A stretch of 64,000 nt of DNA from Flagellimonas aquimarina (GTDB lineage: Bacteria > Bacteroidota > Bacteroidia > Flavobacteriales > Flavobacteriaceae). The stretch's first letter is position 1. Each line of letters opens with the position of its first letter. Shown here piece after piece: positions 26,518 to 63,979 of this stretch. The notes beneath the pieces are model-generated. The model was not told where the DNA came from and did no database searches. It was given only the letters and a program-made list of their open reading frames with translations. The DNA lies in NCBI RefSeq assembly GCF_003149745.1, contig NZ_QGEG01000002.1, forward strand, positions 62,001-126,000, written 5' to 3'. Position numbers and translations under genes: made by a program.

Positions 26518-27696
26518 TTATTCTATCCAAAAGTCGGGAATTGTGCTACTTCCAAGTACGGTGCAATCACCACAAACTCTGGGCACCAATTTATAAATGC
26601 CTTCTGATGCGTCTTCAGGTTCATGTGGCCCTGCATATTTTGATGTATTAAAATTTATGGCACCAAACAGTTCACCTAGAATTGGAGTGGTAATTCTGCA
26701 ATCATCAGGATAAGTGGGGACAAGGTCTTCTGGAAAAAAATCTTCATGGTTGAAAAAAATTCTTTCTGAATCTACAGACGATACATCAAAAAAACCAACT
26801 ACTTTTTCCTTGGGGTCGTTCTGCGGAATTATGTTCCCACTAAAAAAACCAGGTTGATTTTCAGAGAAAATGCTTTCCAATCCCGAAAATTCATTGAGGG
26901 TAGTATAAAAAGAGTGGGCTTCTCTGGATATTACATACTGCCTTACCAAAATACTGTACCTATGGCCAATTATATAGTCAAACCTATCAAGAAAACGAAT
27001 GGGAAAACGCGTTAATCGATCTTCCGAAAACCCAGTGGTATTTCCCAATATAATATTCAGTGAGTTTACGGTATTGTAGCATACTTGCTCTTCTCTGGGC
27101 CTTGGGGCAAATCCATAAATAACAGGAGACTCAGAAACTACTATCAAATCTTGTGGATTCCATCGTGGTGCTACAATCTTATATGTTTCTTCATAGTCAT
27201 ATCTGTAGTATTGGGATTCCCCTTCTGGATCAAATGTATCCACTAAGATAGCAACGCCCTCTACATTTTGGTCATTAGTTTCAACTGCGGCATATAGATT
27301 GTCTATTGAGGTATTTGTTGGTAGAACCACAGAATTGGAAATATAGGAACTCCCTCCGCTTGTGGTAATGGACAATTGATATTCAACATTGGGTTGGGCG
27401 CTAAACATATTGGTAGAGACATATGTGCCAGGAACACTTTCTTGGAAAACATATTCGTTCCCTTGACTATCTTCTATTTTTATTGCGGCATTGCTTTCTC
27501 CACTTGAAATTCCGTCTTCCAAACGAAAGGTTCTACTTAGATAGACTACCTGATGTTTAAACTCATTGGTAATCAAAGCATCAATTACCAAAGCACTCTC
27601 AAAATCCTCGGTTGCGGCATCAAAGGGTTCCACGCAACCAAAAAACAAGCCATTGAGTAGCACTAAAAAGATAAAATGGTATTTATGTTTAAACAT
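26518..27696 (-). CDS. DUF4249 family lipoprotein
   Basis: The product has 392 residues with a lipoprotein signal (lipobox LFFGC, Cys21). The sequence VEPFDAATEDFESALVIDAL followed by repeated beta-rich segments and PTNTSIDNL matches the DUF4249 family, proteins of unknown function almost always encoded next to TonB-dependent receptors in Bacteroidota. The C-terminal VCGDCTVLGSSTIPDFW contributes a CxxC pair. It lies 21 nt after the receptor gene and overlaps no start. It is likely an outer-membrane partner of the receptor, possibly substrate-binding, in place of a SusD. Confidence 0.82.
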   Translation of the reverse strand: MFKHKYHFIFLVLLNGLFFGCVEPFDAATEDFESALVIDALITNEFKHQVVYLSRTFRLEDGISSGESNAAIKIEDSQGNEYVFQESVPGTYVSTNMFSAQPNVEYQLSITTSGGSSYISNSVVLPTNTSIDNLYAAVETNDQNVEGVAILVDTFDPEGESQYYRYDYEETYKIVAPRWNPQDLIVVSESPVIYGFAPRPREEQVCYNTVNSLNIILGNTTGFSEDRLTRFPIRFLDRFDYIIGHRYSILVRQYVISREAHSFYTTLNEFSGLESIFSENQPGFFSGNIIPQNDPKEKVVGFFDVSSVDSERIFFNHEDFFPEDLVPTYPDDCRITTPILGELFGAINFNTSKYAGPHEPEDASEGIYKLVPRVCGDCTVLGSSTIPDFWIE

Positions 27697-27717
27697 TTGT
27701 TTGAATCCTGATTGTAC

Positions 27718-30483
27718 TTAAAATTTGAAATTATAGGTTATTGTTGGTATTGGAATTGAAAAAATTGAACTCTTAAAAGCTTTAATTTCACCACTTTCTG
27801 TTACAAAAAAAACAGAGTAGGGATTATTTCTTCCCAGTACATTATATATTGAAATGTTCCAAAAGCTATGTGCCAGTTTTTTTAACTTGTGATTTCCCTC
27901 AACATTAAAACTTAGATCTAACCTGTAATAGTCTGGAATTCTGAACTTATTTCTGTCGCTATAGAAAGCATAATTTGCGCCTCTAAAAGTATAGCTGCCA
28001 ATAGGATAAGTTACAGGTCTTCCCGTTTGGTAAACAAAATTAGAGGAGAGGCTAAAGCGTTTTGTGAACTTATAGTTGGCAACAAGGCTTATATCATGTG
28101 GTCGGTCAAAATTAGTGGGGAAATATTCTCCGTTATTCACCACTTCTTCTGCAAATTCACTATCCAGTTTTATAAAAGACCTTGCATATGTATATCCAAG
28201 CCAACCATTAAGTTTTCCTCTGTTTTTTCTAACCAAAAACTCAAGACCATAGGCTTTTCCTTCACCCTGTAAAACTTCTGTCTCTAAAGTTTCGTTCAAT
28301 AAAAGATCAGCACCTACTTTAAAATCAAGATTGTTTTTAGATTTTTTATAATACCCCTCCAAGCTTAATTCATAATTGCTGTTGTCAAAATTTTTAAAGA
28401 ATCCCAAAGAATACTGGTTTGCCCTTTGAGGTTCAATATTTAAATCGGAAAGTTTCCAAGTATCTATAGGAGATACGGTGGTATTGTTTGATAAAGTATG
28501 AATGTATTGATATGTACTATTGTAGGCTGCCTTAACCGAAAAGTCTTTTGCCAAAAAATATCTTCCAGACAGACGGAATTCTGGTCCGGAATAGGTTTCT
28601 ATCACTTCATTATTTCCAAATTCAACACTTTGCTCAACAGTTCCTTCACTTCGGGGCAATCCTTCCTGGTAAATCCTTTGAGTAGATTTTCCCAACGCAA
28701 AATAAATAGAGTACCTGAACCCTAAGTCGAGCAACAATTTGTCACTTACTTCATAAGTGTCCGATAAGAACAGTGCCGATTCTAAAGCTTTTTCCTTGGG
28801 AATGCTTAATGGCTCCACAATGGATTCACTGCCTTCGGGATTAATATCGCCAGGGTTTACCAAGTAGAGTTTTGATGAAATCCCGTAGTTAAACCTATGG
28901 GTATTGCTGTGCAAATACCTCATTTTGAATTTCACCTCCGTTTCATTGATTCTATATCCTAGGCGAAAATCAGCATCCGCTTCACCGTCAAAATCTATAT
29001 TGAATCGGTACTCACTATTGGCCAAAATCAAGTCTCCAGAATTCTTTTCATTAAACCTGTGATTCCATTTTACGGAAAACAGCCTATTACTGTAGTTGTA
29101 CAAGGAATCCGATGTTATACTAAAAGCGTCTCTGCTGTAATAAGCTGTTGCTTTTATATCATTTCTGTCGTTGATTTTATGGTTGTATTTTAGAATAACA
29201 TCATAAAACGAAGCTTGGCTGTTTTTCAAGGACTCCTCATCCAGAGATCTAAGAATCCAATCTGAATACGAACTTCTACCACCTACCAAAAGTCCAGATT
29301 TTTCTTTGGCAATCGGTATTTGGAGTGCTATGTTATTCGTTACGGGTCCAACAGAGGCTTCACCTGCAAACTCTTCTGTATTGGCATCCTTATTGGTAAT
29401 TTCAAAGACCGAAGACAAACGTCCGCCATATTCCGAAGGGATACTTCCTTTATATATTTTAAGGTCCTCCGCGGTAAAAGGATTTACTGCCTGAAAAATT
29501 CCAAAAAAATGGGTGGGATTGTAGATTACCGCATTGTCCATGAGGACCAAGTTCTGATCTGTGTTTCCTCCTCTTACATTAAATCCGGTGGCTCCTTCTC
29601 CAACTGAACTTATTCCTGGTAAAGTGGTGGCGACTTTTAGAATATTTCGTTCTCCAAGCACAACTGGGACATTTTTGGTCTCTTCAGCAGATATTTCTGT
29701 GGTTCCCATGACCGCTTCTTCCACGTTTTTGGCCAAATCTGCTCTAACCACAACTTCTTCCAATCGCTCCACACTTTCATTGAGCTGAAAATCAAGCTGG
29801 CCGTCATTGTAAATGATAACATTCTTCCGAATGGGTTGAATTCCAAGTGAACTGGTTTCAACAATATTTAATCCTGCCGGCAATTCAATTCTATAGAATC
29901 CCGAAGCATCCGTGACAGTTCCTATCTTTTGGTTTATTACTACAATAGAAAGATTGGGGATAGGTTCTTTGGATTTTTTGTTTTGAACATACCCGGTAAG
30001 AACAAATCTTTTTCTTTCTGTAACGTGTGCCTTGCCAATTCGCACAGTTTCAACTTCTAATCTTTCTATTGCATCATCTTTGGTGATGAATACTGCATTA
30101 TTGACCACGGTGCTTTCCTGTTCCTCGATTTTAGAGGATCTTTCCAGGTTTCCAAAAAAGCCTGATGGTAATTCATCATATACAATGTTATTTCTACTCA
30201 GCGCTATTTTCTTATCCTTAAGGATATAGAAATTAATAACGCTACCATTAAAAATATCTTCAAGTATGAACTGTATCGTCGCATTTTCATAGTCACCCGA
30301 GATGGTTTCATTTCCAAGCCAGTCCGGTACATAATAAAAGCGATATTCTGTTAGTTCTTCTATTTCTTTTAAAGCATCAATGATTGGGGCATCTTCAAAA
30401 TCCACTGTAATCTTAATTGAGTCATTTTGGGCAATGGCCAATTTAAAACCTAACAGGATCAGTATTGTTAGAATCCCCTTCAT
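27718..30483 (-). CDS. TonB-dependent receptor with STN and carboxypeptidase-regulatory domains
   Basis: The product is a 921-residue outer-membrane receptor for energy-coupled import. Domains: signal peptide 1-18; STN (secretin/TonB short N-terminal) about 23-96; a CarboxypepD_reg-like domain about 161-245 (GYVQNKKSKEPIPNLS, TDASGFYRIELPAG); plug about 255-365 with NVRGGNTDQNLVLMDNAVIY; and a 22-strand-type barrel to the C-terminus (ending ITYNFKF). STN domains normally signal to a FecR partner, but no FecR or sigma factor is adjacent here. It overlaps the upstream unknown gene by 4 nt (ATGA) and is followed by DUF4249. The substrate is unknown. Confidence 0.93.
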   Translation of the reverse strand: MKGILTILILLGFKLAIAQNDSIKITVDFEDAPIIDALKEIEELTEYRFYYVPDWLGNETISGDYENATIQFILEDIFNGSVINFYILKDKKIALSRNNIVYDELPSGFFGNLERSSKIEEQESTVVNNAVFITKDDAIERLEVETVRIGKAHVTERKRFVLTGYVQNKKSKEPIPNLSIVVINQKIGTVTDASGFYRIELPAGLNIVETSSLGIQPIRKNVIIYNDGQLDFQLNESVERLEEVVVRADLAKNVEEAVMGTTEISAEETKNVPVVLGERNILKVATTLPGISSVGEGATGFNVRGGNTDQNLVLMDNAVIYNPTHFFGIFQAVNPFTAEDLKIYKGSIPSEYGGRLSSVFEITNKDANTEEFAGEASVGPVTNNIALQIPIAKEKSGLLVGGRSSYSDWILRSLDEESLKNSQASFYDVILKYNHKINDRNDIKATAYYSRDAFSITSDSLYNYSNRLFSVKWNHRFNEKNSGDLILANSEYRFNIDFDGEADADFRLGYRINETEVKFKMRYLHSNTHRFNYGISSKLYLVNPGDINPEGSESIVEPLSIPKEKALESALFLSDTYEVSDKLLLDLGFRYSIYFALGKSTQRIYQEGLPRSEGTVEQSVEFGNNEVIETYSGPEFRLSGRYFLAKDFSVKAAYNSTYQYIHTLSNNTTVSPIDTWKLSDLNIEPQRANQYSLGFFKNFDNSNYELSLEGYYKKSKNNLDFKVGADLLLNETLETEVLQGEGKAYGLEFLVRKNRGKLNGWLGYTYARSFIKLDSEFAEEVVNNGEYFPTNFDRPHDISLVANYKFTKRFSLSSNFVYQTGRPVTYPIGSYTFRGANYAFYSDRNKFRIPDYYRLDLSFNVEGNHKLKKLAHSFWNISIYNVLGRNNPYSVFFVTESGEIKAFKSSIFSIPIPTITYNFKF

Positions 30484-38813: not shown

Positions 38814-41381
38814 TCAAAAATTGACCCTAAAACTAACATTTGGTGTAATACCCAAAGAAATACTTTCCACAGTTTCAATTTGGTTGTCCTCTGTAACCCT
38901 ATAATACTTGTTTAAACTGTTTTTCCGGTTGGTCATGTTAAGAAGAGAAACACCAGTAGTGGCCTTTATTCTTTGGTTAATATTAAAAGTGTAAATGGCA
39001 GAAGCATCTACCCTAAGATATTCAGGAAGTCTACTGCTGTTAGGTGATTCATAATTTATTCTTGCCGGAAAAACAGATGTGTCCAGAGCTAAATCACCTT
39101 CTTGGGGTTCAGTAAAGGGCTTTCCAGAGCGGTAGTTAACCCCTAAACTTAATTTTAGGTTTTCGTAGGAATAAGTGCCTGCAAAAGTAATTGTATGTCT
39201 AATATCCAAGTTGTTGGGGAAACTGTTGGGAACTATAGCACTAAAGTCATAATCATTTTTGTTATAGGTGTAGGTTAACCATGTGCTGTAGTTATTACCC
39301 TTTTTGTTGATTAAAAATTCAACTCCCTTAACATCATAGCTGCCAATTTCACCATTAAATTGATTTTGATTCTGAAATCCTTGAGTACTGGTGCTTATAC
39401 CATCAACTTTTTTATAAAACCCTTCTACACCAAGATAGATGTCGTTCCTATCATAGTTTATTCCTAAAGACCCCTGTTTACTCTTTGTAATGGGCAAAGT
39501 ATTATCATCAGATAAAATCCACCTACGTTTTTCAATACCGAGGAAATTTTGTTCTAAATCTATGATCTGATTGGTGGTCTGACTTTTAAACTCTCCCAAA
39601 ACTTCTCCCCTTAGATGATTTGCCAATCTAAAATTGAGATTAAGACGAGGCTCAATCAGGAACCTTGAAAATGTACCAAGGTTTTCTATATAGTTGAAAC
39701 GAACACCTGCTTTACCAATAAATTTATTTTCAGGAGAGCTATAACCAATTTCACTGTGCGGGGCATGAATTCTAATAACTCCCTTTATTTCACTATCAAA
39801 ACTAGGTTGGGTTAGAAATGTGGTATTTGTAATGCCTGTTTCAATGTATTGATAACCATTGCTCCAGTTGAGGTTCTTTAACAAGGAGTAGTCAGTATTT
39901 AGTTTTATGGCATTTTCCAAAACTTGATTGTTTTGCAGAAGAAGCTGTATTTGATTCCCAAAAAGGTTTTGGGCATCCAAATTATAGCGAGAATAGTAAA
40001 TATTTAAATTGGAAGAAAGCCTATCGGTCCATTTACTCTGTAGTTGACCACCAAAAGATAGATTGGTCTGCTCTAGAACACTATTGGTAGTTTCCAAATC
40101 TACTAGATTGGTTTCTACATAATCAAGATTGTTATTGATGCTGATAAAATTCAACCTTAGTTGATGCTGGTCATTTACATCATATAAAAGCTTTCCGGTA
40201 AAATCGTAAAAAAAGAAATTTTCATCCCTTATAATATCCTCATCTACTGCTATATTATTTTCATTGGTTACTTCACTATCCTGAAAAGCACGATCAAAAA
40301 ACTTATTGTAGGTGGGGGTGTTCAAAAAATCAGTGGTTGATCGTCTAGCAGAGAACTGCAATCCAATTTTTTCCGTGATAGGAATTTGCCCATAAACATC
40401 TCCACTAATAAAGTTAAAACCTGCCCCGCCAGTTAGATTATCTGATAGTTCGTTACTGGTTTCCATTTGTATCACGCTGCTTACACCATCTCCATATGCC
40501 GACGGTGTGCCATTCTTTATTACGGTTATTTTGTCCGTTAAATAGGGGTTAAAAGCAGAAATCAACCCAAAGAAATGTCCAGATTGATACATTTTAATAC
40601 CATTCCATAAAATTAGATTTTGATCATTGGTTCCACCACGCACATTAATGTCGGAGACGGTTTCATCAATACTTTTAATTCCTGGGAGTGCCTGTAAGGT
40701 CTGTAAGATGTCAGGCTCGATTAATCCAGGTAAAATTCCAAAATCTGCAGTGTTTAGGGTGATACTGGCATCTTTATCCCTAACAAGTCCGGTTGTTAGA
40801 AACTGATAAACGATGACCTCCTTTAGTTGTTCGTAATACTGGGCCAATAGTATTTTTACGGGACCACCTTCTTTTAACAATTCTTCTACAGTAATGTATT
40901 TGGTGATGTACCCCAGATATCTAACTTTTAATGTTGCGTTTCTGGGAATATCTTTGAGTATAAAGGTGCCATCTGTATCTGTGATAATGGCTATCTCTGT
41001 GTCAAAAACCTCTACAGAAGCACCTGGAATGGTGTTTTCAGCAAAGTTGTCCAGTATCTTTCCTTGGACTGTGACAAGGGTACTTTTTGTAATGGTGTAA
41101 TACCTATCATTGAGCTTTTCAGTTTTTATCTGAAATTGGTCTTCAATGTATTTAAAGATATCATTGAGTGAAACTAGATTTTCTGGTACAATGATAGTTA
41201 TATCTTCTAAATCTTCATTGATGTAAGAAAACTTTACGTTGAATTTATCTTCTAAATTCTTTATGTACTGAACGAGTGTTAGGGGTGTGTCTTGTCCACC
41301 CTGTGCATTTATATTCAAACACAGGAAAAAGAAAAACCCAAAGAGGAGGCCAAAATGGCTACTGCGGAGCTTTTTCAGCAT
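38814..41381 (-). CDS. TonB-dependent transducer/receptor of a sigma-FecR signalling system
   Basis: The start is set at ATG 41381 (MLKKLRSSHFGLLFGF), giving 855 residues; the frame opens 24 nt earlier. Domains: signal peptide about 1-27; STN about 35-100, the domain that in FecA-type transducers talks to FecR; CarboxypepD_reg-like about 104-185 (GKILDNFAENTIPGASVEV); plug about 205-310 with NVRGGTNDQNLILWNGIKMY; then barrel to the end (TPNVSFRVNF). It overlaps the fecR-like gene by 23 nt, with a sigma gene upstream, so it should both import a ligand and report its presence. No SusD gene is present. The ligand is unknown. Confidence 0.93.
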   Translation of the reverse strand: MLKKLRSSHFGLLFGFFFFLCLNINAQGGQDTPLTLVQYIKNLEDKFNVKFSYINEDLEDITIIVPENLVSLNDIFKYIEDQFQIKTEKLNDRYYTITKSTLVTVQGKILDNFAENTIPGASVEVFDTEIAIITDTDGTFILKDIPRNATLKVRYLGYITKYITVEELLKEGGPVKILLAQYYEQLKEVIVYQFLTTGLVRDKDASITLNTADFGILPGLIEPDILQTLQALPGIKSIDETVSDINVRGGTNDQNLILWNGIKMYQSGHFFGLISAFNPYLTDKITVIKNGTPSAYGDGVSSVIQMETSNELSDNLTGGAGFNFISGDVYGQIPITEKIGLQFSARRSTTDFLNTPTYNKFFDRAFQDSEVTNENNIAVDEDIIRDENFFFYDFTGKLLYDVNDQHQLRLNFISINNNLDYVETNLVDLETTNSVLEQTNLSFGGQLQSKWTDRLSSNLNIYYSRYNLDAQNLFGNQIQLLLQNNQVLENAIKLNTDYSLLKNLNWSNGYQYIETGITNTTFLTQPSFDSEIKGVIRIHAPHSEIGYSSPENKFIGKAGVRFNYIENLGTFSRFLIEPRLNLNFRLANHLRGEVLGEFKSQTTNQIIDLEQNFLGIEKRRWILSDDNTLPITKSKQGSLGINYDRNDIYLGVEGFYKKVDGISTSTQGFQNQNQFNGEIGSYDVKGVEFLINKKGNNYSTWLTYTYNKNDYDFSAIVPNSFPNNLDIRHTITFAGTYSYENLKLSLGVNYRSGKPFTEPQEGDLALDTSVFPARINYESPNSSRLPEYLRVDASAIYTFNINQRIKATTGVSLLNMTNRKNSLNKYYRVTEDNQIETVESISLGITPNVSFRVNF

Positions 41382-42273
41382 AGAAAAGTACATTATCACC
41401 CTCAAGTTTGTAATTAATATGAGATGGGGTACTAATACTTTTTAACGCCATATTTAAGTCTGTGTTGCTAAAAGTTCCAGTAAATAACAGACTTTTATCC
41501 ACATTTTGTGAATTTACTTCAATATTGTATTGTCTTTCAAGCTCAGCAAAAACATATTCTAGTGGAATTCGGTCAAAACTACTTTCGTTATTTACCCAAG
41601 ATGGTTGCAATGCATCAGGCCTTGCGGTATTCATAATTTTGCCATTAATGACCAAAAAGGATGTGCCAGCAGGCAACTTGGTTTCAGCATTGTTATAGGT
41701 TACACTTACCAAACCTTCGTAGCAGGTAACTTCAAAAAAACCGTCTCTGTTTTCTACGTTAAATTGGGTGCCGAGTACGGCTACCGTTCCTTGATCTGTA
41801 GAAACAGTAAATCGTTTTCCTTTGGCAACTTTGAAGAACGCTTCACCATTTAAGGTAACATTTCGCTTTTCATTCCAATTTTTCTCACTGAAGGAGATTT
41901 TAGAACCTGCATTCAATATAATTTCAGAATTGTCCGGTAAAATAACCTCAGAATGTTCTGCCAACTGTGCAGTAACGGATTTGTCCAATGTGCTTACATA
42001 AAAATAGGAACCTGTAAGCAAAACTGCAATAACGGCAGCAATACGCAAGAATTTTTTAAACGGATTTAATGCAATAACCTTAGGGGCATTACCAATTCGT
42101 TCTTCTTTCAATTGTTCAAAAGCTTGGTCAACATCAAATTCAGGAGCTTTCAATTTTGCTGAAACATCCTTTAATTTCTGGTAAGAAGCATAAGCATCGG
42201 ACTTTTTAAATTCCGTAAGCTCCTCCCCAGAGAGTTCACCGTTTAGCCATTTTGCCAAGTAATTTTCTTGCAT
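41359..42273 (-). CDS. FecR family anti-sigma factor
   Basis: The product is a 304-residue inner-membrane protein. Residues 1-74 are the cytosolic sigma-binding part with a basic end (NPFKKFLR), about 75-93 the single membrane helix (AAVIAVLLTGSYFYV), and the periplasmic part contains the FecR domain (SEVILPDNSEIILNAGSKI, LNGEAFFKVAKGKRFTVST, VAVLGTQFNVEN). The C-terminal part (DRIPLEYVFAELERQYNIEV) is the STN-like receptor-interacting domain. It holds or activates the ECF sigma factor encoded 64 nt upstream, depending on the receptor at 38814-41381. Confidence 0.93.
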   Translation of the reverse strand: MQENYLAKWLNGELSGEELTEFKKSDAYASYQKLKDVSAKLKAPEFDVDQAFEQLKEERIGNAPKVIALNPFKKFLRIAAVIAVLLTGSYFYVSTLDKSVTAQLAEHSEVILPDNSEIILNAGSKISFSEKNWNEKRNVTLNGEAFFKVAKGKRFTVSTDQGTVAVLGTQFNVENRDGFFEVTCYEGLVSVTYNNAETKLPAGTSFLVINGKIMNTARPDALQPSWVNNESSFDRIPLEYVFAELERQYNIEVNSQNVDKSLLFTGTFSNTDLNMALKSISTPSHINYKLEGDNVLFYAEKAPQ

Positions 42274-42337
42274 GATTTCTATGCTTTACATCTTTATAAC
42301 AACTATCTTTTTAAAAACCCTACTTTTTAACCGACCT

Positions 42338-42835
42338 TTAAATACCATCAATCTGTTCCCGTAATGTTTTTAATGCCAAATGCATACGTTTTTCAATGGC
42401 TTTAATGCTTACCCCCTCCATTTCTGCAATTTCAGCATATTTTTTTCCATCAATCCTATTAAGTAAAAAAGTAATTCTTTGGTTTTCGGGCAAATCATTT
42501 AATGCTTTGTCCAATTTTTCCTTGTATTCTTTCTCCTCTAACAAAAACTCGGGAGATTCATTTGAGTGTTTATAAGTTGGTTCCGCATACTTAAGCCTAA
42601 CTTTTTCAGCCTTGATTACATTCAGGTATAAATTGTTGGCTACCGTATACAAATATGATTTGGCTTTTTCAGGAGTTACCTTGGCGCAATTTTCCCAAAG
42701 TTTTACAAATGCCTCTTGGACAGCATCATGAGATTTCTCTTCATTGCCAAATTTATAATATATATAATTGAATACCGTTTTGGAATTAGCCTTGAATATT
42801 GTGCTAAAGACTTGCTCTTCGCAAACGTTGTTCAT
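42338..42835 (-). CDS. ECF (FecI-type) RNA polymerase sigma factor
   Basis: The product has 165 residues with only regions 2 and 4. Region 2 has VFNYIYYKFGNEEKSHDAVQ and AFVKLWENCAKVTPEKAKS; region 4 (about 108-160) has LPENQRITFLLNRIDGKKYA and EIAEMEGVSIKAIEKRM, the helix-turn-helix that reads the -35 element. It is the first gene of the minus-strand signalling operon and has an exact TAnnTTTG box 23 nt upstream. Its likely targets are its own operon and the divergent acidic lipoprotein gene. Confidence 0.93.
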   Translation of the reverse strand: MNNVCEEQVFSTIFKANSKTVFNYIYYKFGNEEKSHDAVQEAFVKLWENCAKVTPEKAKSYLYTVANNLYLNVIKAEKVRLKYAEPTYKHSNESPEFLLEEKEYKEKLDKALNDLPENQRITFLLNRIDGKKYAEIAEMEGVSIKAIEKRMHLALKTLREQIDGI

Positions 42836-42857
42836 TGAGGAAGGTTTGTCGATTGCC

Positions 42858-42865
42858 CAAAGATA
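42858..42865 (-). promoter_or_regulatory. -7 promoter box of the sigma-FecR-receptor operon
   Basis: CAAAGATA on the plus strand reads TATCTTTG on the minus strand, an exact TAnnTTTG box 23 nt upstream of the sigma-factor start. TTTA lies about 20 nt further upstream in place of TTTG. The housekeeping type of the box suggests basal expression independent of the ECF factor. Confidence 0.5.
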
Positions 42866-42948
42866 TTTTAAAAAAAATTAAGATAAAGTAGGGTTTTTTA
42901 TTTGAGAGTTGTTTTAAGGTTGTATTCTAACTGAAAATCCAAATCGTT

Positions 42949-44712
42949 ATGAAAAAGTTGATAAATAACTTATTGTATGCAGGCCTTGTAGTTATGGCCT
43001 TTAGTTTTACCTCTTGTCAAGAGGAATTTGAAGAAGTAGCAGGAGGTAATGACCAAGAAACCATTACAGCAAACTCTTCTACTGCTCAATTAATAGAGAA
43101 AACGTCTTCCAATGATGGTTCTTTTGACAATATTGTGGACGGCGCTAGCTGTATTGCTCTAAAATTTCCATATACTGTTGAAGTAAATGGAATCCAAATT
43201 ACAATCGACTCTAGAGAAGATCTTCACACTATTGAAGATATTTTTGATGAAGTTGATGTGGACGAAGATATTTTAGATATCATTTTTCCTATTACCATTA
43301 CACTAGCAGATTTTACTGAGATTGTTATTGAGAATAAGGAACAATTAAGAGAATTGGCCGCACAATGTTTAGAAGGTGGGGACGATGATGATATTGAATG
43401 TATTGACTTTGTTTACCCAATCACACTATTTACGTTTGATATCAACAACCAACAAACTGGAGAGGTTGTTGTGGAAAGCGATGAAGATTTAAGAAAGTTC
43501 TTTAACGGGTTGGAAGATGACGATCTAGTGAGCATTCAATTTCCTTTGACCTTAAAGAAATTTGATGGAACTGAGATTGTTGTAGATAGCAATGGTGAGC
43601 TGGCCAACGCTTTGGAAATGGCCAAAGATGAGTGTGACGAGGATGACGACGATGATTTTAATGATGATGATTTTGATGAAGAACGATTTGACTTCTGTTT
43701 GACGCAGTGCCCATGGGAAGTTCGTGAGGTAGTAAGAGACAATCAAAGTCAAACAGAACAGTACCTAGAGTACATAATGACTTTTGCAGAGGATGGAACA
43801 GTAGTAGTAAAAGATAGAGAAGGTAATATTCTTAACGGTACTTGGACCTCAAGTTTTACCGATCGTGGTCCACTTTTAACTCTTGAATTTGATGTCTTGG
43901 TAGACTTTAACCTTGAATGGTTGGTATATGAAATTGGTGATCATACAATTAAATTATATGCTGAGAATGGGAATAAGATAATCCTTAAGCAGCTTTGTGA
44001 AGATGATCCGGGAGAAGTACCAGGTCCAGATACACTAAGAGAAATCCTGAAAGAATGTGAGTGGATTATCAAAAAGGTTAAAAACCAGGGTGAAGAAATT
44101 GACAGACTATTAGGATTTGAATTCAAGTTCTTGCCTGAGGGTGTAGTAACCCTAAGCAATGGAATTACAACTTCAGAAGGTACCTGGGAAATTGGGTATA
44201 ACAATGATCAGGTGTTGTCCTTGTTGATTACTATGGGAGATGAGCCTGGAGTAAGCTTTGAATGGCCATTAAGAGACCTTAACAATACCAGATTAAGGTT
44301 TGAAGTAGAAGAAGTTGACTATGAATTGGTTCTATTGCGTGTATGTGATGATAATGCCAGCGATGGAGATGTACCTGAAATCAGAAACATTATGATGGGT
44401 GGAGCATGGAATGTAGCCATGTATAAAGAAAATGATATGGACATGACCTCAGAATTTGCAGGAATGGACTTCAATTTCTCTACTATGCACCAAGTTGAAG
44501 TTTCAGTCAATGACGACCCTATCTCTGCCGGTATCTGGAGAGTAATAAGAAATCATGATAATGAGTTGAAATTCTTCTTGAACTTTGGCGACGAGGCTGT
44601 TCTAGGTGAACTTACGGATGATTGGTACATAAATACAGTAGACTCAAATCGTATTGAATTAATACATGAAGATGAAAATTCTACTGAAACATTGGTTTTT
44701 GAAAGACCATAA
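42949..44712 (+). CDS. Large acidic repeat lipoprotein, probably surface-exposed, divergent from the signalling operon
   Basis: The product has 587 residues and matches no family I recognise. Lipobox SFTSC (Cys23) is followed by QEEFEE, which closely resembles the Bacteroidota surface-export signal. Residues 68-230 hold four ~40-residue repeats with the pattern FP(Y/I/L)T...G..I.I.S.E.L (at 73, 113, 156 and 198), bordered by cysteines. An Asp tract (about 228-247) links to three ~100-residue repeats (250-350, 370-466, 487-587), each with a W near the start, then F.F...G.V, GTW/GIW, L.L, F.W or W, and a closing Cys in the first two; these look like lipocalin-like barrels. It is very acidic throughout. 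It is followed by a strong terminator. Confidence 0.8.
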   Translation: MKKLINNLLYAGLVVMAFSFTSCQEEFEEVAGGNDQETITANSSTAQLIEKTSSNDGSFDNIVDGASCIALKFPYTVEVNGIQITIDSREDLHTIEDIFDEVDVDEDILDIIFPITITLADFTEIVIENKEQLRELAAQCLEGGDDDDIECIDFVYPITLFTFDINNQQTGEVVVESDEDLRKFFNGLEDDDLVSIQFPLTLKKFDGTEIVVDSNGELANALEMAKDECDEDDDDDFNDDDFDEERFDFCLTQCPWEVREVVRDNQSQTEQYLEYIMTFAEDGTVVVKDREGNILNGTWTSSFTDRGPLLTLEFDVLVDFNLEWLVYEIGDHTIKLYAENGNKIILKQLCEDDPGEVPGPDTLREILKECEWIIKKVKNQGEEIDRLLGFEFKFLPEGVVTLSNGITTSEGTWEIGYNNDQVLSLLITMGDEPGVSFEWPLRDLNNTRLRFEVEEVDYELVLLRVCDDNASDGDVPEIRNIMMGGAWNVAMYKENDMDMTSEFAGMDFNFSTMHQVEVSVNDDPISAGIWRVIRNHDNELKFFLNFGDEAVLGELTDDWYINTVDSNRIELIHEDENSTETLVFERP

Positions 44713-47319: not shown

Positions 47320-47350
47320 TTTGAACAGCGATTTAAATTCAGTACCTTTT
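47320..47350 (+). promoter_or_regulatory. Promoter of the esterase-like lipoprotein gene
   Basis: The -33 box TTTG (47320-47323) is followed after 19 nt by TACCTTTT (47343-47350), one mismatch from TAnnTTTG, 20 nt upstream of the start codon at 47371. Spacing and position fit the Bacteroidota consensus. Confidence 0.5.
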
Positions 47351-47370
47351 TGATCAAATTCCCATCCATC

Positions 47371-49098
47371 ATGAAAAATCATCTTTTCGCATTAGTTTGC
47401 CTTATACTTTTCTTGAATTCTTGTACCAAAAATAAAATCACAAATCAAATTGTGGTCTCTTTTTCCAAAGAGGCAAAAGAGGGTGCTGTTGATGGGCGTT
47501 TGCTTTTAATGCTTTCCACCAATGATGAAAAAGAACCACGATTTCAAATCAGCAGCGGACTGAATGCTCAATTGATATTTGGAATGGATGTGGAAGATTT
47601 TAAACCAGGAGATGAAATTGTCTTTGATGATTTGGTATTTGGATTTCCGTATGCAAGTTTAGCAGAAGTATCTCCTGGCGAGTACAATGTGCAGGCACTT
47701 TTGCACACGTACGAAACATTCAACCTATCCACAGGGCATACAGTTAAATTGCCCATGGATAATGGGGAAGGACAACAATGGAACAGGTCTCCGGGAAATT
47801 TGTACAGTACTCCCTTTAAGATTACAATTAATGAAAATGGTGTCCAAAACGTAAGTGTTACAATGGATAAGGTAATTCCACCAATTGAAGAAGCAGAAGA
47901 CACCAAATGGATAAAGCACCTGAAAATTAAATCTGAAAAACTATCTGAATTTTGGGGAAGGGATATGTATTTGGGAGCTCATATTCTGCTGCCAAAAGGT
48001 TTTGAAGAACATCCAGAGGCAAAATACCCGTTAATGATTTTTCATGGGCATTTTCCGAACGATTTTGGCGGTTTTAGGACTACGCCCCCAGACCCCAACA
48101 CAAAACCCGAGTACTCCGCACGTTTTGATGTTGAAGGCTACAATATCATCCAAAAACAAGAAGCATACGATTTTTACAAAAGATGGAACGAACCCGATTT
48201 TCCAAGGTTTTTGATTATTGAAATTCAACACCCCACCCCATATTACGATGATTCGTATGCTGTAAATTCAGCTAGTCAAGGCCCTTATGGTGATGCCATC
48301 ACTCATGAGTTGATTCCATACATAGAAAAAGAATTTAGGGGCATTGGAGAAGGCTGGTCACGGTTTTTGTATGGAGGCTCAACAGGAGGTTGGGAAGCCC
48401 TTGCCGTTCAAGTGAAGTATCCTGAGGAATACAATGGTTGTTTTGCCGCTTGCCCAGACCCTATTGATTTTAGAGCCTATTGTTTGACCAATATTTATGA
48501 GGACAAGAATGCATATTATTATGAAAGCGACCATAAAGTAGCAGAAGTTCCCGCCCATCGTGATTACCTTGGCCATGTTCAAAGTACTGTTCGTGAAAAC
48601 AATCATTTAGAATTGGTATTGGGAACAAAATCACGATCAGGTCAGCAATGGGATATTTGGGAGGCCACATATTCCCCCCAAGGGAAAGATGGGTATCCGC
48701 AACGACTGTGGGATAAAACTACAGGAGTAATCAACCCAGAGGTAGCGGAATATTGGAAAGAAAACTTTGACCTTAAACATATTCTAGAACGGGATTGGGA
48801 TAAACTAGGCGAAAATCTTAAGGGGAAAATTCATATTTATTGCGGTGATATGGACAATTACTATTTAAACAATGCCGTTTATTTAATGGAGGATTTTCTG
48901 GAAAGTACCACAGATCCATATTATGAAGGTGAGGTATTGTATGGGGATAGAGCGGAACATTGTTGGAACGGTGACCCAGAATTACCCAATCATATTACTA
49001 GAATGCGCTACAATACTATGTATGTGCCAAAAATAATGCAACGAATTGCTGAAAGCGCACCAAAAGGTGCTGATCTTAGTAGCTGGCGTTATAAATGA
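47371..49098 (+). CDS. Large esterase-like lipoprotein (alpha/beta hydrolase)
   Basis: The start is set at ATG 47371 (MKNHLFALVCLILFLNSC; lipobox Cys18), giving 575 residues; an upstream TTG frame start would put extra residues before the signal. The N-terminal ~170 residues are beta-rich. A putative-esterase domain follows: YPLMIFHGHFPNDFGG, the nucleophile elbow YGGSTGGWEALA, the acid region in YCGDMDNYYLNN and the histidine in RAEHCWNG. The residues after the lipid cysteine (TKNK) are basic, so surface export is less likely than periplasmic anchoring. The substrate is unknown. Confidence 0.8.
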   Translation: MKNHLFALVCLILFLNSCTKNKITNQIVVSFSKEAKEGAVDGRLLLMLSTNDEKEPRFQISSGLNAQLIFGMDVEDFKPGDEIVFDDLVFGFPYASLAEVSPGEYNVQALLHTYETFNLSTGHTVKLPMDNGEGQQWNRSPGNLYSTPFKITINENGVQNVSVTMDKVIPPIEEAEDTKWIKHLKIKSEKLSEFWGRDMYLGAHILLPKGFEEHPEAKYPLMIFHGHFPNDFGGFRTTPPDPNTKPEYSARFDVEGYNIIQKQEAYDFYKRWNEPDFPRFLIIEIQHPTPYYDDSYAVNSASQGPYGDAITHELIPYIEKEFRGIGEGWSRFLYGGSTGGWEALAVQVKYPEEYNGCFAACPDPIDFRAYCLTNIYEDKNAYYYESDHKVAEVPAHRDYLGHVQSTVRENNHLELVLGTKSRSGQQWDIWEATYSPQGKDGYPQRLWDKTTGVINPEVAEYWKENFDLKHILERDWDKLGENLKGKIHIYCGDMDNYYLNNAVYLMEDFLESTTDPYYEGEVLYGDRAEHCWNGDPELPNHITRMRYNTMYVPKIMQRIAESAPKGADLSSWRYK

Positions 49099-50276: not shown

Positions 50277-50468
50277 AGTGTGATAAAAGTAAATTGTGGG
50301 GATCAATCTTCCAAATAGATATGAGGCTATTTTTATTGAAATTTTCAATGGTTCCAGATAAAATGGTATTCATGGTTTATGGGATGTTGATAGTCTATAT
50401 AATATTTATAAAAAAATAAATGTATTTATCTTTAGAAACCACCGTATATCAATTTGATTAACAGTACT

Positions 50469-51260
50469 ATGAAAAAAATAGCGTTCCTATTAGTTTTGAT
50501 TCTAATAAGCTCTTGCAAAAAAGAGAACAAAACCCAAACAGCAGAAAGTAATTTAAATGAACAAGAAACCATACCTAATGAGTGGGTGTATCTTTTTGAT
50601 GGTACCAACACCGATGGATGGAGAGCATATAACGGAGATGTATTGCCGCCAGGTTGGATTATAAAGGACAGTACACTGACATTTGATACCGAACTAGGTC
50701 TTGAGCAAGATTACAAAGGAGGCAAGGATATCATATATGGTGCCGAGGAGTTTGATAATTTTGAACTATACCTTGAATGGAAATTGCCTGAAGGAGGTAA
50801 CAGCGGTATTTTCTATCACCTTAAGGAAGGCTATGACGGCCCTCCGGAAGTTTCCCCTGAATACCAATTAATTGATGACGAAAATTATGCTAGAATCCAT
50901 GATTTAACAGCTTACAACACCAGTCTTGGATACACAGAAAAACCTGAAGAACTGAAACCATTGCAAAGAACAGCCTCGGATTATGCCATGCACCCTGCAG
51001 ATACAATAAAAAAGAAATTGAACCCTATTGGCGAATGGAATTCTTCTAAAATTGTTTTTACCCCTAAAAAAGTGGAACATTGGCTTAATGGGGAAATGGT
51101 GCTTTCCTTTGTCCCATGGGATGAAGCTTGGTACGAAAAGAAAAATTCCGATAAATGGAAGAACAGCGCAGATTACGGAAAATTCAAAACCGGATTCATT
51201 GGATTACAAGATCATTCCAGTCCTATCTGGTTTAGAAACATAAAAATTAAAAAATTATAA
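50469..51260 (+). CDS. DUF1080 (3-keto-disaccharide hydrolase family) lipoprotein
   Basis: The product has 263 residues from ATG 50469 with lipobox ISSC (Cys16). The domain WVYLFDGTNTDGWRAYNG, GGKDIIYGAEEFDNFELYLE, WKLPEGGNSGIFYHL and the end GKFKTGFIGLQDHSSPIWFR is the concanavalin-like DUF1080 fold, members of which cleave 3-keto-glycosides. It is followed after 12 nt by a Gfo/Idh/MocA oxidoreductase, the enzyme type that can make the 3-keto group, so the two probably act in sequence on a glycoside in the periplasm. Confidence 0.88.
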   Translation: MKKIAFLLVLILISSCKKENKTQTAESNLNEQETIPNEWVYLFDGTNTDGWRAYNGDVLPPGWIIKDSTLTFDTELGLEQDYKGGKDIIYGAEEFDNFELYLEWKLPEGGNSGIFYHLKEGYDGPPEVSPEYQLIDDENYARIHDLTAYNTSLGYTEKPEELKPLQRTASDYAMHPADTIKKKLNPIGEWNSSKIVFTPKKVEHWLNGEMVLSFVPWDEAWYEKKNSDKWKNSADYGKFKTGFIGLQDHSSPIWFRNIKIKKL

Positions 51261-61925: not shown

Positions 61926-62756
61926 ATGGAGCAGATAATCACATACTTTGAAAATATTCCGGCACTGCACAGAAGTCTTATTCTGGTCGGAGGAATTACG
62001 TTCTTCTGGGTTTTAGAAGGAATAGTGCCACTTTTTAGTGTTAAGTATAAAAAATGGCGTCATTCCATTCCTAATTTTTTCTTTACGCTCACAACCATAA
62101 TTATCAACTTTCCACTAGCATTTTTATTATTGAAAACATCGGATTGGACGGTAGAAAACCAATTTGGGATTATTAATTGGTTGCCAGAAATGCCTCTGTG
62201 GCTGTATGTTGTTCTAGGCGTTATGCTTCTTGATCTAATTGGAGCATATACTGCGCATTTGGTTGAACATAAGGTAAAACCCCTTTGGATGGTTCATTTG
62301 GTGCATCATTCCGATCATAATGTGGACACTACCACTGCGAACAGACATCATCCATTGGAGAGTTTAATTAGGTATACTTTTACTTTAATAGGTGTTTTCA
62401 TTGTTGGTGCCCCTATTGGTGTCATTATGCTATATCAAAGTTTATCGGTTGTTCTTTCTCAATTTAATCATGCGAACATACGTTTGCCCAAGAAAGTTGA
62501 CAATGCAATAAGTTGGTTTATTGTGAGTCCAGATATGCATAAAGTGCATCACCATTACAAATTGCCTTATACAGACTCAAATTATGGCAATATTTTTTCT
62601 ATTTGGGACAGGCTATTTGGAACCTTTATGAGGATGGATGTAAATTCAATTGTTTACGGAGTGGATACCTTTCCTGATGAAAAAGAGAATAGTAGTATAA
62701 TGGGGTTGCTTAAACAACCTTTTCATAAATACAAAAGACCTACCACAGAAAACTAA
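61926..62756 (+). CDS. Sterol desaturase/fatty acid hydroxylase family protein
   Basis: The product has 276 residues with four or so membrane helices. The diiron histidine clusters are seen as AHLVEHKVKPLWMVHLVHHS, then NRHHP, and later MHKVHHHY followed by the SNYGNIFSIWDRLFGTF signature. It hydroxylates or desaturates a lipid chain, such as a fatty acid of ornithine lipids, sphingolipid or carotenoid, in the inner membrane. A near -7 box TATCCTTG (61906-61913) precedes it. It overlaps the convergent NamZ gene by 4 nt. Confidence 0.87.
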   Translation: MEQIITYFENIPALHRSLILVGGITFFWVLEGIVPLFSVKYKKWRHSIPNFFFTLTTIIINFPLAFLLLKTSDWTVENQFGIINWLPEMPLWLYVVLGVMLLDLIGAYTAHLVEHKVKPLWMVHLVHHSDHNVDTTTANRHHPLESLIRYTFTLIGVFIVGAPIGVIMLYQSLSVVLSQFNHANIRLPKKVDNAISWFIVSPDMHKVHHHYKLPYTDSNYGNIFSIWDRLFGTFMRMDVNSIVYGVDTFPDEKENSSIMGLLKQPFHKYKRPTTEN

Positions 62757-63979
62757 TCGTAGATCAAATACTTTTGCCTTATTTTTTTAAAAGCATCCAA
62801 ATCTTGTTTCCAACTTGCTTTTATTTCTGATTCTGATTGTCCCTCTTCAATTTGTTTTTGCAATTCTGGCGTTCCCGCATGTTTGGTAAAAGATGCGGTA
62901 ATAAAGAACTTCGACCTGTCCAAGGTGTTTTGGTAGGCATCGAGCAACCATTGTAAAGAAACCGATTCCATTCGTTCAGATTGGGATAAATCTCTTCCAA
63001 AGGAAGTTTTACCTTGTTCTTTTGGGTGTTTGGACCCAAAATTAGGTTTAGGCACATAGCTAAAATCATATTGCACACTATCTAAAAAAGATGCTCCATA
63101 CCGCTGAAACTGAAACTCAGTTCCACGCCCAGCATTAACATTGGTGCCTTCAAAAAGGCCCAAGCTGGGATAAAGATTGATAGATACATCATTTGGGAGG
63201 TTAGGGGAAGGTCTGATGGGAACATGATACTCAGAATGATGCTTGTAATTTTTAAGTGGAACAACGGTCAAAGCAACAGTTGTATCTCCTTTTAGCCATC
63301 CTTCAGCATTGATCATTCGTGCATATTCACCAATTGTCATACCGTATACCAACGGAATTGTTGTCATGCCCAAAAAACCAGTATGTTCCTTTTTCATTGT
63401 TGGGCCATCAATGTAGTGACCATTAGGATTTGGTCTGTCCAAAACAACAATGGGAATGTTACTTTCAGCACAGGCTTCCATCACTAATTGTAATGTGGCT
63501 ATATAGGTGTAAAATCGCACTCCAACATCCTGAATATCAAAAATCACAAGATCAAGCCCTTCCAATTGCTCTTTTGAAGGTTTCTTGTTTTTGCCATATA
63601 AAGATATAATGGGTAAGCCTGTTTTGGTATCCAAACCGTCCTTGACCAATTCTCCTGCATCTGCCTTCCCCCTGAACCCATGCTCTGGAGCAAAGACTTT
63701 CTTGACACCAACTTTTAACGAGATCAAGGAATCTACCAAGTGTGTGTGTCCATTTTCTTTAAAAACAACACTGGTTTGGTTAGCGACCACCCCAATGACT
63801 TTGTTTTTGAGTAATGGGAGGTATTCTTCTGTTCTATTGGCAGCAACACTAATTTTTGATATAGAATCTGTTTCTACGCTAACAGTGGTGAGCTTACTTT
63901 CTTTTTCCTGTCCCTTACATGAAGAAAACAGCAAAACCAACAATAAAACTGTACTTTTGAAAATAGATAAAATGGGCAT
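62753..63979 (-). CDS. Exo-beta-N-acetylmuramidase NamZ-type (DUF1343) lipoprotein
   Basis: The product has 408 residues, lipobox FSSC (Cys21). The DUF1343/NamZ domain is complete: VIGVVANQTSVV, VFAPEHGFRGKADAGE, LPIISLYGKNKKPSKEQLEG, FDIQDVGVRFYTYI, DRPNPNGHYIDGP, and SLGLFEGTNVNAGRGTEFQF. Characterised members split N-acetylmuramic acid from the ends of peptidoglycan fragments, so this is a cell-wall recycling enzyme on the periplasmic side. Its upstream region lies outside the window. Confidence 0.92.
   Translation of the reverse strand: MPILSIFKSTVLLLVLLFSSCKGQEKESKLTTVSVETDSISKISVAANRTEEYLPLLKNKVIGVVANQTSVVFKENGHTHLVDSLISLKVGVKKVFAPEHGFRGKADAGELVKDGLDTKTGLPIISLYGKNKKPSKEQLEGLDLVIFDIQDVGVRFYTYIATLQLVMEACAESNIPIVVLDRPNPNGHYIDGPTMKKEHTGFLGMTTIPLVYGMTIGEYARMINAEGWLKGDTTVALTVVPLKNYKHHSEYHVPIRPSPNLPNDVSINLYPSLGLFEGTNVNAGRGTEFQFQRYGASFLDSVQYDFSYVPKPNFGSKHPKEQGKTSFGRDLSQSERMESVSLQWLLDAYQNTLDRSKFFITASFTKHAGTPELQKQIEEGQSESEIKASWKQDLDAFKKIRQKYLIYD

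Follow-up and report, generated by a model that had tools for sequence, protein, structure and literature searches.

A FecI/FecR-type signalling cassette of Flavobacteriaceae facing a lipoprotein gene with a matching predicted promoter

The FecIRA and FoxIRA cell-surface signalling systems of Pseudomonadota combine an extracytoplasmic function (ECF) sigma factor, a FecR-type anti-sigma factor and a receptor with an N-terminal signalling domain, and the accessible part of one account gives transcription of the receptor gene as sigma-dependent (PMC11637429). Here, we analyze a cassette with genes for an ECF sigma factor, a FecR-type anti-sigma factor and a receptor with a putative N-terminal signalling domain, facing a divergently transcribed lipoprotein gene, in a stretch of 64,000 nucleotides (nt) from Flagellimonas aquimarina (contig NZ_QGEG01000002.1, positions 62,001 to 126,000; the whole stretch is referred to as the window). 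The cassette is likely to constitute a cell-surface signalling system of the FecI/FecR/FecA type, the co-regulated output of which is a dedicated surface lipoprotein. As judged from the sequence, a sigma-dependent promoter precedes the receptor unit here as well. Unlike in FecIRA and FoxIRA, however, fecR is predicted to belong to this unit, with the lipoprotein gene constituting a second one. In Escherichia coli, fecR is grouped with fecI. Genes for iron or siderophore functions were not recognized beside the cassette.

In gene content, the nearest described relative that we found is PUSIII of Flavobacterium johnsoniae (Fjoh_3856-3859), in which, according to the accessible part of the source, the same four kinds of genes, encoding a lipoprotein, a receptor, FecR and a sigma factor, stand together and are all induced by phosphate depletion (PMC8115612). 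The PUSIII lipoprotein, characterized in the same text as polygalacturonase-like, differs in that it follows the receptor by locus number; the two lipoproteins are set apart by description and not by sequence. The BtuB-BtuG pair, responsible for vitamin B12 uptake in Bacteroides, likewise joins a TonB-dependent receptor to a surface lipoprotein, in this case in a proven lid complex (PMC10404256), whereas the present cassette is known from its genes alone; the abstract of that study names no FecR or sigma factor. SusCD loci, too, place an outer-membrane receptor with a CarbopepD_reg_2 domain beside a lipoprotein. Here, however, the receptor has no NCBIfam match at E ≤ 0.01, including any SusC/RagA-type model, and no sequence link was found between the lipoprotein and any named family (Pfam at E ≤ 1, SusD included; NCBIfam at E ≤ 0.01).

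The four genes are present where the original prediction had placed them, with 113 nt between the divergent start codons of the sigma and lipoprotein genes, and its description of a lipoprotein of no recognized family, with QEEFEE after the lipid cysteine, agrees with these searches. The sigma factor contains ECF regions 2 and 4 (Pfam Sigma70_r2 and Sigma70_r4_2, each above cut-off), the anti-sigma factor has FecR and FecR_C domains above cut-off and a solved relative, the putative anti-sigma factor 4m0n (E 1e-19), and the receptor matches CarbopepD_reg_2 and Plug, both above cut-off. The prediction had further stated that SusD and glycan-degrading enzymes are absent. This holds for SusD and the glycoside-hydrolase families, none of which turned up when 14 proteins of the window were scanned with Pfam, but a gene with a 3-keto-disaccharide hydrolase domain is present at 50454-51260 (+). 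An ordinary polysaccharide locus is ruled out by the lack of SusD and of an NCBIfam receptor model.

Matching promoters predicted on both sides of the sigma gene

Both predicted units are preceded by the same bipartite site, GTAGGG-N16-TGTT, which lies in the 64-nt gap between the sigma gene and fecR and again before the lipoprotein gene (Table 1). The site was followed through 120 genomes of the family (that of F. aquimarina and 119 others). FecR relatives occur at 138 places outside the own genome at E ≤ 7.7e-45, with a clean break before the next match (9.6e-26). All 138 were fetched; together with the window, these make 139 stretches, or 134 cassettes after removal of 5 stretches without a sigma open reading frame (ORF). 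Among all 80 named loci, the motif precedes the lipoprotein gene in 77 and occupies the sigma-fecR gap in 74. A relaxed form covering classes A and B defined below (GTAGG, 15-18 bases, TGTT or TGTC) is present in the gap of 95 of the 134 cassettes, on the lipoprotein side of 88 and on both sides of 82, against means of 0.5, 0.38 and 0 in shuffled sequences. Although spacers of 14-18 bases were allowed, the distance from the start of the -35 element to the end of TGTT/TGTC amounts to 26 nt in 224 out of 226 sites.

The -35 word varies between clades. Each site was assigned to the first matching class in the order A (GTAGGG), B (GTAGGA, GTAGGT or TTAGGA), C (mostly TCAGGA; pattern [TA][CA]AGG[AG]) and D (TTGGGA). 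Both promoters fall into the same class in 99 of the 102 cassettes classifiable on both sides, compared with a mean of 36.8 and a maximum of 58 in 10,000 permutations, and within class A the -10 variant, TGTT or TGTC, is the same at both promoters in 44 of 45 cassettes. Some genomes (23) hold cassettes of several classes, with -35 and -10 taken together; there, promoters belonging to the same cassette agree in 52 of 54 pairs and those of different cassettes in 1 of 78, which makes genome composition an unlikely cause of the concordance. The recognition helix of the sigma factor (region 4.2) also differs by class, with the typical forms SVKAIEKRMHLALK in the window-like clade of class A, STKAVEKRIYGAL in B, TKKVVEYRIYSAF in C and TKKVAEHRIYGAL in D, in a comparison of at most nine printed rows per class that sets aside the other class-A subclades.

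Because of the shared motif, the fixed spacing, the co-varying -35 words and the same-genome concordance, the lipoprotein very probably belongs to the sigma factor's own regulon, and we consider it highly probable that the sigma factor reads both promoters, that of fecR-receptor and that of the lipoprotein. The original prediction had named the lipoprotein as a possible target of the system, a proposal for which the shared, co-varying promoters provide strong support. By contrast, the single tightly packed operon that it described is unlikely, since the predicted promoter in the 64-nt gap would give fecR-receptor a start of its own, separate from the sigma gene. Autoregulation of the sigma gene through the same motif was not seen: within 110 nt upstream, on the strand of the gene, the motif was found in 0 of 107 cases.

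Table 1. Coordinates of the cassette features within the window.
Feature	Position	Strand	Details
TonB-dependent receptor/transducer	38814..41405	-	863 residues as listed, TTG start; CarbopepD_reg_2 E 7.6e-13, Plug E 2e-8
Putative STN-like N-terminal signalling domain of the receptor	41088..41294	-	~residues 38-106; FecR_C match below cut-off and by-eye reading in relatives
FecR-type anti-sigma factor	41359..42273	-	304 residues; FecR E 2.1e-19, FecR_C E 4.5e-13
Predicted sigma-dependent promoter of fecR-receptor	42295..42323	-	GTAGGGTTTTTAAAAAGATAGTTGTTATA
ECF sigma factor	42338..42835	-	165 residues; TIGR02985-like, 121.8 bits against a cut-off of 126.4
Candidate housekeeping -7 box	42858..42865	-	TATCTTTG; fits TAnnTTTG (PMC9723704, accessible part); sigma start codon 22 nt on
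Predicted sigma-dependent promoter of the lipoprotein	42888..42916	+	GTAGGGTTTTTTATTTGAGAGTTGTTTTA
Lipoprotein gene	42949..44712	+	587 residues; lipid cysteine 23, then QEEFEE
Lipoprotein N-terminal domain	43054..43635	+	four modules, ~42 residues each; one invariant proline per module
Lipoprotein Asp linker	43633..43674	+	C-D-E-D-D-D...; conserved
Three lipocalin-like beta barrels (predicted)	43678..44706	+	~residues 244-350, 358-466, 474-586

In the mechanism that we propose, the sigma gene would be transcribed from its own, possibly housekeeping promoter, as the candidate -7 box hints, and FecR would keep the sigma factor at the inner membrane. As is known for systems of this type, a ligand outside would meet the receptor, the N-terminal signalling domain of which would alter its contact with FecR and free the sigma factor. 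The freed sigma factor would then start transcription at both matching promoters, driving fecR-receptor in one direction and the lipoprotein gene in the other, and the receptor, its brake (FecR) and the lipoprotein would rise together. The lipoprotein would be exported to the cell face, where it would most likely pass the ligand to the receptor or sit with the receptor. In the nearest relatives, a 55-residue membrane protein encoded elsewhere may join the regulon, as its promoter suggests.

Conservation of the pairing and architecture of the lipoprotein

Relatives of the lipoprotein are present in 87 of the 120 family genomes, the own one included. Counting matches down to E 5.6e-25 and leaving out weaker rows, the 119 other genomes contain 109 lipoprotein places, 105 of which lie less than 6 kb from a cassette-type FecR gene, all 105 being divergent. 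Two of the remaining four start within ~720 bases of the contig start and one belongs to a genome without a FecR match. The last is a split case (G050): on the fecR-receptor contig, GTAGGGTTTTTAATCCTTCAGTTGTT lies upstream of these genes and the fetched stretch contains no sigma match, and the sigma and lipoprotein genes are on another contig, with the motif kept before the lipoprotein gene. Approached from the cassettes, a match to the window lipoprotein is found on the divergent side in 107 out of 134, window included. The original prediction was to fall if the lipoprotein gene were not conserved beside the cassette in related genomes; the pairing of receptor and lipoprotein genes proves to be conserved.

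In the window, the cassette and the lipoprotein gene lie between argS and ffh-folD. For the named loci with enough flank (70 out of 80), the sigma gene was found in 69, fecR in 67, the receptor gene in 68, ffh and folD in 69 each, and argS in 36. Clustering of neighbour genes over 138 stretches recovered the lipoprotein family in 110, ffh in 59, folD in 56, argS in 28 and any other family in at most 19. The nearest lipoprotein relative among the 80 named loci, from an uncultured Allomuricauda, is 94% identical. When genomes were drawn across the phylum, the N-terminal domain was detected in 30 of 296, including 26 of the same family (own genome included), one from a different family of the class, with a strong match, and three with weak matches. 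At two loci (L143 and L197), the sigma gene directly faces ffh, with no relative of the lipoprotein found there; at another (L123), a DUF4382 lipoprotein is directly divergent from the sigma gene, and the lipoprotein relative sits beyond it.

The predicted model of the lipoprotein consists of four modules, mostly three strands and a helix each, followed by the Asp linker and three barrels. Confidence in the full-length model is moderate (mean predicted local distance difference test score, pLDDT, 76.6; predicted template modelling score, pTM, 0.43); the N-terminal domain modelled alone reached a pLDDT of 81.4 and a pTM of 0.66. The module prolines 74, 114, 157 and 199, spaced by 40, 43 and 42 residues, show no variation across 20 diverse sequences or across a further set of 28 that shares part of its members with the first. 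Foldseek found nothing similar to the N-terminal domain at E ≤ 0.001, and the best VIA-align match (Z 6.0 over 57 residues) is below the stated noise level, which leaves room for an unlisted family.

According to VIA-align, the first barrel resembles 8u2f (Z 11.0, root-mean-square deviation 2.3, 97 residues aligned) and 4qrl (Z 10.5, 2.5, 91), the second 4nw4 (Z 10.1, 4.0, 107) and the third 7kv6 (Z 8.6, 3.3, 99), and in the predicted model the C-terminal domains are three 8-stranded lipocalin-like barrels. Weak Pfam matches among 20 members, to DUF4923 in 4, Lipocalin_4 in 2 and META in 2, beside chance-like others, agree with such folds. Matched divergent members vary in length between 216 and 922 residues, some having just 216-228, and it is therefore the N-terminal domain that looks like the constant part.

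Compared by eye, QEEFEE resembles published surface-export signals, namely the SDDFE consensus of F. johnsoniae and the C-X-K-(D/E)2 of Capnocytophaga canimorsus, as given in the accessible part of their source (PMC5080379); relatives carry, e.g., QDE, QKEE, RKEE or RTEE after the lipid cysteine. This charged stretch supports the surface exposure of the lipoprotein, in line with the location originally predicted. Metal or protein binding, also predicted, is suggested by the conserved Asp stretches, the sole hint in this direction, and the Asp linker may bind calcium. Among open-licence PMC papers, we recognized no description of the lipoprotein family or of the GTAGGG promoter.

Regulon output or receptor partner

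Several observations weigh against a signalling system with a dedicated, co-regulated lipoprotein. A classifiable site is missing on one or both sides in 32 of the 134 cassettes, and in 27 the divergent side holds nothing that matches the window lipoprotein; at least one of these (L184) contains a distant lipoprotein that joins the same cluster, and in at least one genome (G053, with locus L197) no lipoprotein relative was found anywhere. The -35 class follows clade: on a receptor tree of 95 cassettes (7 of the 102 being dropped for a receptor read shorter than 700 residues), it changes 6 times on the fecR side and 7 times on the lipoprotein side, so that the concordance rests on few independent events. 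Independent pairs number 3 the same, 0 opposite and 1 unchanged for classes A and B alike and 2 the same for class C; the sign test on them is not significant and, with such numbers, cannot reach significance. The housekeeping -7 box, with the consensus TAnnTTTG in the accessible part of its source (PMC9723704), precedes the sigma gene in only 35 of 107 cases, window included, as against 8.15 in mono-nucleotide shuffles and 6 on the opposite strand. All of the regulatory evidence is sequence-based. Finally, across 83 cassettes the partial rate correlation of two lipoprotein domains with the receptor is weak (0.14 and 0.18), with corresponding values of 0.30 and -0.19 for the sigma factor and 0.00 and -0.03 for FecR, and this co-variation is too weak to decide on docking.

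Whether the lipoprotein is a partner of the receptor is about an even call. It could instead be merely an output of the regulon, e.g., a surface coat, adhesin or scavenger, that never touches the receptor, a reading that we regard as rather less probable than its negation: support for the lipoprotein reaches no further than the shared promoter, its total length is variable, down to the short divergent members, and the rate correlation with the receptor is weak, yet the divergent linkage is near constant and the two corrected domains do correlate, if weakly, with the receptor and not with FecR, one of them also with the sigma factor. The lipoprotein might also itself be what the receptor senses, reporting the level of surface lipoprotein or serving as a kin signal, with feedback. 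The predicted co-induction of the fecR-receptor and lipoprotein units would suit this idea, as would the scarcity of recurrent neighbours beyond ffh, folD and argS (none in more than 19 of 138 stretches), but cassettes persist where no relative is detectable, be it on the divergent side or, in G053, in the entire genome, and with nothing bearing on it directly we consider it improbable. That functionally unrelated genes merely share the argS-ffh chromosomal neighbourhood is extremely unlikely, despite the presence of ffh in nearly all named loci and of ffh and argS in part of the fetched stretches, because at least 51 stretches with the lipoprotein cluster have no ffh in the fetched part, the promoters co-vary and survive separation of the cassette, and promoter concordance, the same-genome control and neighbour clustering rule out chance.

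Taking the co-regulated output as the preferred reading, we tentatively extend it, at a strength well short of likely, to receptors throughout the Flavobacteriaceae: the undescribed four-module domain might dock as a lid, the lipocalin-like barrels, variable in number, might set the choice of ligand, and paralogues within one cell might be insulated by a promoter code based on joint changes of the -35 word and the sigma recognition helix. For a FecI-type sigma family of the Flavobacteriaceae, the results yield a predicted promoter code, to which an unannotated lipoprotein family is tied, and a natural set of paralogous sigma-promoter pairs, seemingly insulated from each other; the role of the lipoprotein, like the ligand of the system, becomes directly testable.

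Wider regulon, receptor start and other genes of the window

Exact matches to the strict motif number 6 in the own genome, two of them being the cassette's own sites; allowing up to one mismatch yields 8 sites versus 5 for the reversed control, a weak excess taken alone. In 17 relatives, there are 49 exact sites versus 2 control sites. Eight of the 49 share the string CGTTC-GTTGTTATA, and since four of these (L221, L228, L231 and L236) have, by eye, the appearance of coding sequence, all eight are likely to be coincidental. One strict site of the own genome precedes the gene for the 55-residue membrane protein (L212, 1778-1945, +), which occurs at 15 places in 14 of the 120 genomes, own included, with GTAGGG-N16-TGTT/C upstream in 10 of the 15; this candidate is firmer as a further target than the other own-genome sites. 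In most printed relatives, a large, oppositely oriented reading frame follows the 55-residue gene. Another strict site lies 21 nt before the gene for a 183-residue lipoprotein, with a DUF5723 gene next (L210, 2428-4483), and yet another precedes one of two similar hydrophobic ORFs of 27 and 28 residues (L211, 7702-7983, -). The site before the 27-residue ORF resembles the CGTTC-GTTGTTATA string and is doubtful, possibly a coincidence; targets beyond the 55-residue gene are not established.

The listed TTG start of the receptor gene results in a 47-nt overlap with fecR, and an inner ATG is equally likely to be the true start. The STN domain that the original prediction assigned to the receptor has indirect support only: Pfam STN is not matched, but residues 44-104 match FecR_C (E 0.05, below its cut-off), and the same N-terminal stretch is readable by eye in 14 printed short receptor relatives (of 48), which apparently have no CarbopepD domain.

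Elsewhere in the window, an esterase-domain protein is encoded at 47350-49098 (+) and a NamZ exo-muramidase at 62753-63979 (-). At 26518-30483 (-), a second receptor with CarbopepD_reg_2 and Plug domains adjoins a DUF4249 gene, that is, a neighbour other than SusD.

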